Source: Isotricha intestinalis
Taxonomy: Eukaryota > Ciliophora > Litostomatea > Vestibuliferida > Isotrichidae
Reading direction: 5' to 3'
NCBI GenBank assembly: GCA_023807065.1
Contig: JAJJLU010000002.1
Span: 26,058-90,057, forward strand
Length of the DNA stretch: 64,000 bases
Shown here: in pieces, positions 15,089-64,000 of the stretch
Numbering within the stretch: the first letter of the stretch is position 1
How the letters are laid out: the number at the start of each line of letters is the position of its first letter
Translations under genes and position numbers: made by a program
Notes under the pieces: generated by a model
What the model was told of the DNA's origin: nothing
Seen by the model: the letters and a program-made list of their open reading frames with translations, nothing else
The model's database searches: none

Positions 15089-17277
15089 TCAATCTTTTTG
15101 TAGAAAAAATGAATATCTAAAAATAAACATAAATATTATACTCACTATAATGAATATTATAAAATATTAACCATCTAAAAAAGGTAAAAAATAAGTTACT
15201 TTCTACAATTATAAATTATATTACGAACTAAATTGAGAAATATAATTTACCATCTATTTTTTATTTATTTTTTTATACTTACTATTAAATATATTTCTTT
15301 TATGTTTTACCGACTAACATTATATTATTATACAAACTAATATTAATCTTTTTATATTCTTTACGCACTATAATATAATAAAAAAACTAAAATTCAAACA
15401 GTCTATAATTTATATAATTAAATTTTTTTTACTTACTATATTATTTTTATTTTAAGAATGACTTTCTGTGATTTTATTATATCTTTTACTTTCTGTAATA
15501 TTATTATTTAATTCTAACTGTCTAAAATAGGATAATTTCCATATATTTACAGACTAAATATTTAAATTTTATTTTATACAATCTATGATGTTTATTATTT
15601 TATTTCTGACTTACTATAAATAAAATTAAATTTATTTCTTACTAACTTTAAGAATATTATCAATTATTTCTTACAAACTATAATAATATTTGTTAATTTA
15701 TTTCTAACGAACTAAATTATTTTTCTTCAATTTTCTTACAATCTAAAATATTATGAGTTCAAATTATACCCACTATTATATTAGTAAATTTATTACATTC
15801 TTATGAAATTTTTTTATTTTTTTCTTACGTTCTAAAAGAATATTATTAATTAATTTTTACAAACTATAATCATTTCAATTCATATTTTACCGGCTATAAT
15901 ATTATTATTTATTTTATACTTCCTAAAATTTTTAATTTCTTATTTACAGACTAGATATTTTATTTTTTTTTTTACTCACTGAAGAAATTATAATTTTTAC
16001 TTACGGCCTAAATATAATTCTTATTAATGTTTTACTCACTAATAAATCATTAATTTATTATTTACTCTCTTAAATAAATTTTATTTATTTTTACAGACTG
16101 TAATATTATTATCTTTTTTATTACTAACTTTTATATAATCAATTATTATTTTTTACAGTCTGAAAATCAATATTAATAAATTTTTACAGTCTATAATATT
16201 TTTCATTTTTATTAATTACGAACTTAATAATTTATTTTTTTTTACTTCCTATATAAATATTATAATATTGATATTTCTTACCCACAACAATTATTTTTTA
16301 TTTTTTTTATTTACTTACTATATTTTATTGTTAATCCTTACAAACTTTTATTATTTAGTATCTTACCAAAATTCTTTATTTTCTTCAAATTGATCTTCTT
16401 CATATAAAGGATAATCTTTATTATTATATTCATAACTTCCAATTGGTTGAAATTTTATGGTTTTGCTTTTTTTAAAAATCTTTCTGGGATCTTTGTCTTC
16501 TTTTTTTGTGTTCATCATTAAATTAGTTCTATAAAAATCAGCAGGATTATTAGAAAGTCTTCTTTCACTTAATATTTTTTTTTTTTCTTTATAATTAAAA
16601 AATTGTTTTTCAATATCTTCAATAATATGTTTCATTAAAATTCCTTTGTTTAAATTTTTCTCTTTTCCACAATGAATACCAATAATTTTTAAATTTCTTG
16701 TATCTAAACATATAGGAGAACCAGAAGAACCACTTTCAGTACTAATTGAATGAATTATTTGATATTCATTTTGAATTTTATTTAAATATCCTTCTGCAAA
16801 TGAAACTCCATTTCCTCCTGGATTTTGTATAATAACAAATTCATCATTTATATATTCTTCTTCTGGATTATCAATATCAATATTTTTTTCTACTTTAAAA
16901 AAATTATTAAAATTATCTTTATCTAATATTTCAATTGCTGTGTAATCATATTTTAAACTTGTGCTAAAAAATCTATTTTTAGGATTTATTTCTTTTATTT
17001 CTTTTTCATATTCTATTTTTATTGGTGAATCTTTTTTGTCTATAATATGATTATTTGTAAATAGAAATTTCATTAATTCAATTTTTTTGTCAAAATTATT
17101 TCTTATTTTTAATTCACAAAAAAAACCAGTTCCACTTGTTTCATTAACCATTATTTTACAAATTGCAGAAAATTTTTTTTTATATCTTTCAACTGCTCTT
17201 GCATTTATTGGTTTTTGGTTATTGATAATTAATTCTGGTTTAAAATTATTTTGTTTGTTTTTCTTCATTTTTTTCAA
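15089..17277 (-). CDS. Trypsin-like serine protease with a C-terminus encoded by 3-nt microexons
   Basis: The main exon (16367-17277, 303 complete codons plus TG) encodes a trypsin-2 type domain with an intact triad: FTNNHII (His77), KYDYTAIEI (Asp111) and TESGSSGSPI (Ser185), then IIGIHCG. There is no signal peptide, so it is probably cytosolic. Read straight, the frame ends at TAA 16363-16365, but those bases are inside GTAAG, a donor like the real introns of this window. Below it lie 41 candidate exons of 3 nt, each bounded by AG (one by TG) and GT, and a last exon 15089-15116 ending in TGA. The joined tail is open: it starts CF, passes through LLYLDEPDLNR and GFSFYKFLQKN, and ends CSKCEYSFFLQKD, with a CxxC. 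Total 353 aa, or 352 if the TG-flanked triplet is skipped. The protease call is firm. The spliced tail is inferred from the frame and splice signals alone; the alternative is a 304-aa protein ending at 16363. Confidence 0.8.
15117..16366 (-). other. Array of 42 tiny introns separated by 41 three-nucleotide exons
   Basis: On the minus strand the pattern AG-NNN-GTAA recurs about every 30 nt. Microexons, in transcript order: 16342-4, 16315-7, 16282-4 (TG acceptor), 16246-8, 16220-2, 16188-90, 16157-9, 16125-7, 16095-7, 16066-8, 16036-8, 16005-7, 15976-8, 15948-50, 15920-2, 15891-3, 15861-3, 15829-31, 15797-9, 15770-2, 15740-2, 15709-11, 15675-7, 15643-5, 15611-3, 15580-2, 15551-3, 15519-21, 15490-2, 15463-5, 15433-5, 15400-2, 15365-7, 15334-6, 15311-3, 15279-81, 15251-3, 15225-7, 15200-2, 15172-4, 15142-4. 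Introns are 20-33 nt (mean 26.8, sum 1127). Donors: 30 GTAA, 6 GTAT, 3 GTTA, 2 GTCA, 1 GTTT. Acceptors: 30 TAG, 6 AAG, 5 CAG, 1 TTG. All introns are phase 2. Intron sequences differ from one another beyond the ends, so this is not a simple recent tandem repeat. Confidence 0.85.
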
Positions 17278-63961: not shown

Positions 63962-64000
63962 TTGGGGATTGGGGATTGGGGATTGGGGATTGGGGATTGG
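63962..64000 (+). repeat. Telomere, 7-nt unit TTGGGGA
   Basis: Five perfect copies of TTGGGGA (63962-63996) and a partial TTGG end the window. The G-rich strand runs toward the end, as in a right chromosome end. Its complement is the CCCCAAT unit. Ciliate telomeres usually have G4T2 or G4T4; this 7-nt form with an A is unusual. It marks the chromosome as macronuclear (or a healed end). Confidence 0.95.

Follow-up and report, generated by a model that had tools for sequence, protein, structure and literature searches.

The 3' part of a protease gene on the minus strand of the window, a stretch of 64,000 nucleotides at the end of contig C2 in a genome assembly of 57.3 Mb and 2153 contigs, very probably consists of coding sequence into which a spliceosomal intron is placed every three bases, each exon of the array then amounting to a single codon. 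Splicing is deduced here from the DNA, and arrays of such predicted one-codon exons are a recurrent architecture of this genome, beyond one gene. The features of the gene model and the repeat at the contig end are as follows:

16367..17268, minus strand: exon 1, 902 nt, from the ATG to the TG of a split Cys codon (Pfam Trypsin_2, gene model, homologues)
16363..16365, minus strand: apparent stop TAA ending the unspliced ORF (TGG TAA), inside intron 1 (TG|GTAAG)
16345..16366, minus strand: predicted intron 1, 22 nt, GTAAG...AAG (gene model)
15142..16344, minus strand: predicted array, 41 exons of 3 nt separated by 40 introns (site count, gene model)
16282..16284, minus strand: predicted exon 3 (TGG), with the sole non-AG acceptor of the window array (TTG, 16287-16285)
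15142..15253, minus strand: predicted exons 37-41 (ATG TTC AAA ATG TGA), Cys-Ser-Lys-Cys motif across split codons
15117..15141, minus strand: predicted last intron (42nd), 25 nt (gene model)
15089..15116, minus strand: predicted last exon, 28 nt, with the last base of a split Glu codon, YSFFLQKD and the stop TGA at 15091-15089
63962..64000, plus strand: telomere-like repeat (TTGGGGA)n at the contig end

A preliminary description of this DNA had counted 41 AG-NNN-GT units on the minus strand between 15089 and 16367. Analysis of acceptor-donor spacings returned 40 strict sites in that region, with 0-2 sites for each of 12 other spacings (0 to 12 nt). The 41st unit, TGG at 16284-16282, has the exact 3-nt spacing but the acceptor TTG, and it explains one apparent 66-nt gap between strict sites. 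Its spacing, spacer lengths and coordinates were borne out: three bases separate acceptor and donor in the 40 strict units and in the TTG unit, the introns of the gene model measure 20-33 nt like the spacers described, and the positions given were exact, with exon 1 closing at 16367, the last exon opening at 15116 and the stop codon of the spliced frame ending at 15089. GT donors were found in 42 of the 42 introns and AG acceptors in 41. In 1000 first-order (Markov) shuffles of the region, AG-N3-GT occurred 4.3 times on average and 12 times at most, and the longest chain at intron spacing reached 4 units, versus 38 in the real region, where 2 further units lie beyond the TTG unit. Shuffles of the whole window (n = 20, both strands) gave a longest chain of 3, and the real window contained, on both strands, no second chain of at least 3 units. 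Based on the shuffles and on the scarcity of other spacings, a chance origin of the window array was rejected.

In the spliced model, 902, 123 and 28 nt join into 1053 nt read in one frame of 350 codons, ending at the TGA 15091-15089, and the predicted product of 350 residues has the tail CFNGNSLLYLDEPDLNRLTIGFSFYKFLQKNKLAFRKCSKCEYSFFLQKD. The frame stays open too if the TTG unit is skipped (CFKNSLL..., read from the triplets). The protease nature of exon 1 was indicated by a match to Pfam Trypsin_2 (1.3e-6; 29.7 bits for a cut-off of 27.6), and NNH and SSGSP, which are presumably catalytic, were invariant in 30 aligned sequences. The unspliced ORF is complete as well and ends at Trp 301, followed by TAA. 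Of the 42 introns, 30 open with GTAA and interrupt a codon behind its second base; as their retention would bring an immediate TAA, the long form of the protease needs those introns removed. The open spliced frame, the stop soon after the last intron and motifs common to other arrays all support the run of 3-nt exons announced in the preliminary description. When the order of the window triplets was shuffled, however, the frame was open in 14% of cases, which is not significant, and the window array is therefore not decisive by itself.

Comparison of the window array DNA with its own genome gave 67 matches at 64 to 100% identity, self included, and a second array used as query gave 66. All 67 rows of the first query and 56 of the 66 rows of the second, ten weaker rows being excluded, fell into 61 clusters on 55 contigs. 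Triplet arrays were present in 25 of the 25 fetched stretches, which had been chosen for resemblance to an array and are not an unbiased sample; chains of at least 4 triplets were found in the first 20 of 20 and likewise in the further 5 of 5. The longest array (C1893:11244-7463, L021/L041) was modelled with 108 introns, all GT-AG, and 107 exons of 3 nt, and its frame meets no stop until shortly past the last intron. At C1364:4909-6982 (L022), the model comprised MSE and 66 triplet codons, the stop codon itself being a triplet exon; this would be a small, zinc-ribbon-like gene modelled almost wholly in 3-nt exons. The genome search for the protease listed 51 matches, and 14 of the top 31 had an array-query match within 2.5 kb downstream. 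At L025 and L040, arrays come after ORFs that read, by inspection and not by profile, as protein kinases, and ORF and array are inferred to form one gene in each case. Contig C2 has a second array (L035, C2:23398-24151) on its opposite strand, to the left of the window, with the tail CFKCGVMVP...CPKCK|YIF. Five arrays (L017, L024, L025, L028 and L033) were located at contig ends, where near-identical introns perhaps break the assembly; in that case arrays may be undercounted. No relatives were found among viral contigs, in a search that may leave out near records.

In 20 array-bearing stretches, chains of at least 5 units were obtained with 3-nt exons alone (44 chains, 739 units), the 14 other exon sizes from 1 to 15 nt giving no such chain. 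Under a flat prior on exon length from 1 to 60 nt, with an intron model trained on 3-nt chains, 674 of 811 exons measured 3 nt and 8 measured 6 nt, while lengths of 26-37 nt formed a second hump that resembled skipped units; a prior favouring 3 nt gave 973 exons of 3 nt out of 986. In four tails (L024, L026, L027 and L028) a single 6-nt exon was observed, the rest measuring 3 nt. Modelled introns measured 20-40 nt across the arrays and followed GT-AG in 938 of 1009 cases. The other 71, at least one of which occurs in 16 of the 23 modelled arrays (the TTG of the window included), mostly display AT, GA, GC or TT donors or TG acceptors with the 3-nt spacing kept, and reflect either true splicing tolerance or assembly errors. 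They count against the splicing reading in that the spliceosome would have to tolerate them.

The coding nature of the triplets was evaluated in eleven arrays directly preceded by at least 49 open codons, by which the frame is fixed from upstream. In ten of them, none of the 338 spliced codons was a stop in the upstream-set frame, whereas the other frames had 42 stops in 348 codons and 30 in 338; the eleventh, L031, was left out because of a doubtful modelled first intron (the implied frame holds 9 stops in 70 codons), one stop being left in its likely frame. G+C contents at codon positions 1, 2 and 3 were 0.40, 0.28 and 0.19 in the ten arrays and 0.31, 0.23 and 0.08 in ordinary ORFs of the window, and this gradient in the arrays fits coding sequence. 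It is worth noting that codon position 1 of the C1893 tail reaches a G+C of about 0.59 (L021), versus 0.31 in ordinary ORFs. For all 23 modelled arrays, two of which are the halves of C1893, the frame was picked by fewest stops, so that the resulting figures are partly circular: 5 stops in 1003 codons, one of them being the end of the C1364 gene, versus 79 in 995 and 135 in 1010 in the other frames. One or two stops are left in the chosen frame of L031, L039 and L040. Codon use of the 23 arrays correlated with that of ordinary window ORFs at a Spearman coefficient of 0.85, versus 0.62 and 0.67 for the other frames.

Several tail types could be distinguished among the predicted products. Exon 1 of type a was found in the window and at L023, L026, L027, L029, L031 and L035-L037, and the nine arrays behind it all have a CxxCx end and a last exon starting with YxF; L024 and L028, for which no exon 1 was seen, show the same ending. 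In the 8 of 8 type-a genes with a clear end of exon 1, the terminal W would become C-F upon splicing, the Cys codon straddling exon 1 and the first triplet. Between the start and end motifs, type-a tails differ widely in length and sequence; the second Cys of CFxC occurs in 4 of the 8 clear tails and is missing from that of the window, which counts against the splicing reading. For the window tail, a metal-binding role may perhaps be proposed. A second tail type, CxxCxYxFWxGE, was found at L030, L032, L038 and L044, with looser variants, such as CNNCHYQFWRGQ and CTKCGYQYYNGEE, at L022 (minus strand), L040, L043, L045 and L046. A third, at C1893, L033, L034 and L047, looks coiled-coil-like by inspection. 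The residues of each CxxC are carried by separate 3-nt exons, and conservation of the motif is hard to explain without splicing.

No profile of known families matched the tails above any cut-off, no homologue of the C1893 tail or of the C1364 product was returned by the predicted-protein search, and the window tail had no match among proteins of its own genome, in a search without positive control. From 5.8 billion predicted proteins, 779 homologues of the window gene were retrieved, and its spliced form was not among the best 120 of them; as such proteins mostly come from gene finding on DNA, the absence of this form, of the C1893 tail and of the C1364 product is weak counter-evidence. Among the same best 120 of 779, 33 proteins end exactly in W, 22 in LR, 12 in NE, 10 in NK and 10 in KK, ends which read-through of TG|GTAA, AG|GTAA, GA|GTAA and AA|GTAA donors could yield; their genes may thus carry arrays as well. 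Six further proteases of the genome were also fetched. A protease ORF was found in five of them (no ORF of L052 passed the filter), and none of the five carries an uninterrupted tail of array type. By inspection, the protease runs into leucine-rich-repeat-like sequence at L048, L050, L051 and L053, and into Hsp70-like sequence at L049, suggesting that this protease family swaps C-terminal modules.

Two other readings of the arrays have to be weighed. Ciliates, to which the organism very probably belongs, are known to cut out DNA located between coding pieces, and the spacers might be internal eliminated sequences of a germline version shown by the assembly. A somatic version without spacers should then exist. 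Spliced DNA of two genes, combined in a query of 936 nt, retrieved no contiguous tail from the 57-Mb genome, with an assembly that is perhaps incomplete, while both genes were matched at 100% in exon 1 and in the last exon (one exon-1 paralogue was matched as well). The window array also shares its contig, which ends in a telomere-like repeat, with ordinary uninterrupted genes, and the GT and AG borders of most spacers given above are an intron signature, so that DNA elimination appears highly improbable. The arrays could alternatively be non-coding tandem repeats placed behind a protease ending at Trp 301, with meaningless triplets. The complete unspliced ORF with its plausible end, the 33 homologues ending at W and the weak tandem repeats seen by TRF in the window array region are in line with such a view. 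However, a conserved TG|GTAA donor would likewise be read as TGG TAA, with W as the last residue, and the absence of stops in the upstream-set frame, the G+C contents by codon position and the CxxC motifs recurring across genes all speak for codons, leaving this second reading scarcely credible.

Under the preferred reading, that of one-codon exons joined by splicing, exon 1 would stop in mid-codon (TG|) and a spliceosome comprising U1, U2 and U6 would take out 42 introns of 20-33 nt. Each intron would presumably be recognised across itself (intron definition), because three bases leave too little room for exon definition. Every removal would extend the upstream exon by one codon, in a presumed stepwise order, and the outcome would be the protease of 350 residues, with Cys-x-x-Cys-Glu-Tyr-Ser-Phe near the end of its tail. 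Without splicing, the ribosome would meet TAA directly after Trp 301. U2, U6 and U1 RNAs were detected in the same genome (E values of 1e-30, 7e-28 and 1e-16) and between them carry the stretches ACTTACC, GTAGTA and ACAGAG, which we take to be the canonical working stretches. These RNAs look ordinary, and intron definition as proposed fits with them. As candidate branch-site motifs of U2-type introns, ATAAT, TAATA and AATAA were only modestly more frequent in 321 introns from diverged arrays than in shuffles.

The introns themselves fall into sequence families. Fifteen modelled arrays had enough introns of the same length for comparison; in 12 of them, interior identity ranged from 0.79 to 0.98 (about 0.5 expected), and three consensus families were recognised, each common to several arrays; introns of the window array and of L029, L031, L034, L035, L037 and L040 are too diverged for such identity. 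One 33-nt consensus had 81 copies in the genome at no more than 2 mismatches (0 for the reversed control), all on ten contigs also matched by the array search. The origin of the arrays, a question apart from splicing, could be sought in tandem duplication of whole intron-plus-codon units. L032, with introns diverged at the start and near-identical further on, is in favour of it, as is L043, the predicted product of which repeats SWVK and LGDEE, such that blocks of units may duplicate; at L023 and L036, pairs of identical introns have a matching triplet behind them in 19% and 17% of cases, versus 8% of all pairs. Over the ten arrays with fully identical intron pairs, however, the same triplet follows in 0 to 19%, versus 7 to 13% of all pairs, and L022 (plus strand) and L033 have a common 27-nt intron consensus (pair identity 0.89) despite a triplet agreement of 0.32 per base. 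With near-copy introns in many arrays, and triplets about as different as random pairs, simple duplication of units does not explain the arrays and is judged unlikely. Either intron copies enter coding sequence at every codon, or they homogenise without the codons, or the codons diversify extremely fast.

A more speculative proposal, which we put forward tentatively and to which we give somewhat less than an even chance, is that some process places copies of a short intron at each codon-length, along a three-base ruler, and leaves the codons undisturbed. As every exon is one codon, skipping of any unit keeps the frame, and skipping could then produce combinatorial tails. The array might also act as a gate, incomplete splicing giving the short protease and complete splicing the long one.

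The arrays can be compared with several known systems. Isolated microexons (1-30 nt, in animals, plants and fungi) are, like the array exons, far below usual size; to our knowledge, they occur alone or in small numbers only, whereas 41 (window) to 107 (C1893) are predicted here in direct succession. A one-nucleotide exon has been reported in Fusarium (PMC12940212) and a 3-nt exon is named in a Drosophila study (PMC8042270). Micro-exon genes combine a conventional exon with tiny exons in multiples of three and form a multigene family, as is the case here. They have been reported in rice, among others (PMC6600660). In the window, 41 consecutive very short exons are modelled after an exon of 902 nt. 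Micro-exon genes of schistosomes have tiny exons of varying size, with exon skipping in their transcripts. Exons of the arrays are instead uniform (3 nt in 674 of 811 under the flat prior), their introns measure 20-40 nt and are near-copies within many arrays, and it is for want of variability in exon size that the arrays were not classed as micro-exon genes.

Introner-like elements, described in fungi (PMC4457414) and Amoebophrya (PMC7789003), are another point of comparison. As in the present genome, near-identical intron families are found in different genes, the window array itself being diverged. Known introners insert at scattered sites, in contrast with the intron copies of the arrays, which come after every three bases. 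Introns of 15-16 nt in Stentor (PMC9505925) are very short spliceosomal introns, as those of the arrays would be, and the terms 'microexon' and 'exon length' are absent from the text of that paper. No description of such one-codon exon arrays was found in the titles and beginnings of abstracts listed from the open-licence literature.

Regarding the host, the litostome Muniziella is reported to have the telomere repeat (CCCCAAT)n and the standard genetic code (PMC11316547). The repeat (TTGGGGA)n of the window contig is the same repeat, and long ORFs of the window are open under table 11; the two characters point to a litostome ciliate, which by that kinship would probably live in a gut. Other genes of the window are in keeping with a ciliate, among them one for a myosin that carries RCC1 repeats, one for a kinase with cyclic-nucleotide domains and one with a sub-threshold Spec3 match.

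If the splicing reading holds, these arrays push exon size down to one codon, repeatedly and within one transcript, and raise the question of how a spliceosome removes 42 to 108 adjacent introns lying three bases apart; they would make intron definition directly testable. As gene finders would break off at the first intron, many of these proteases may stand in public databases without their tails, and small genes like that of C1364 would be invisible to ordinary gene finders. That identical introns separate codons of different sequence suggests that introns are gained or homogenised in some as yet unexplained way. A process working with a three-base ruler, if true, would amount to a new way of gaining introns and to a new kind of gene architecture.
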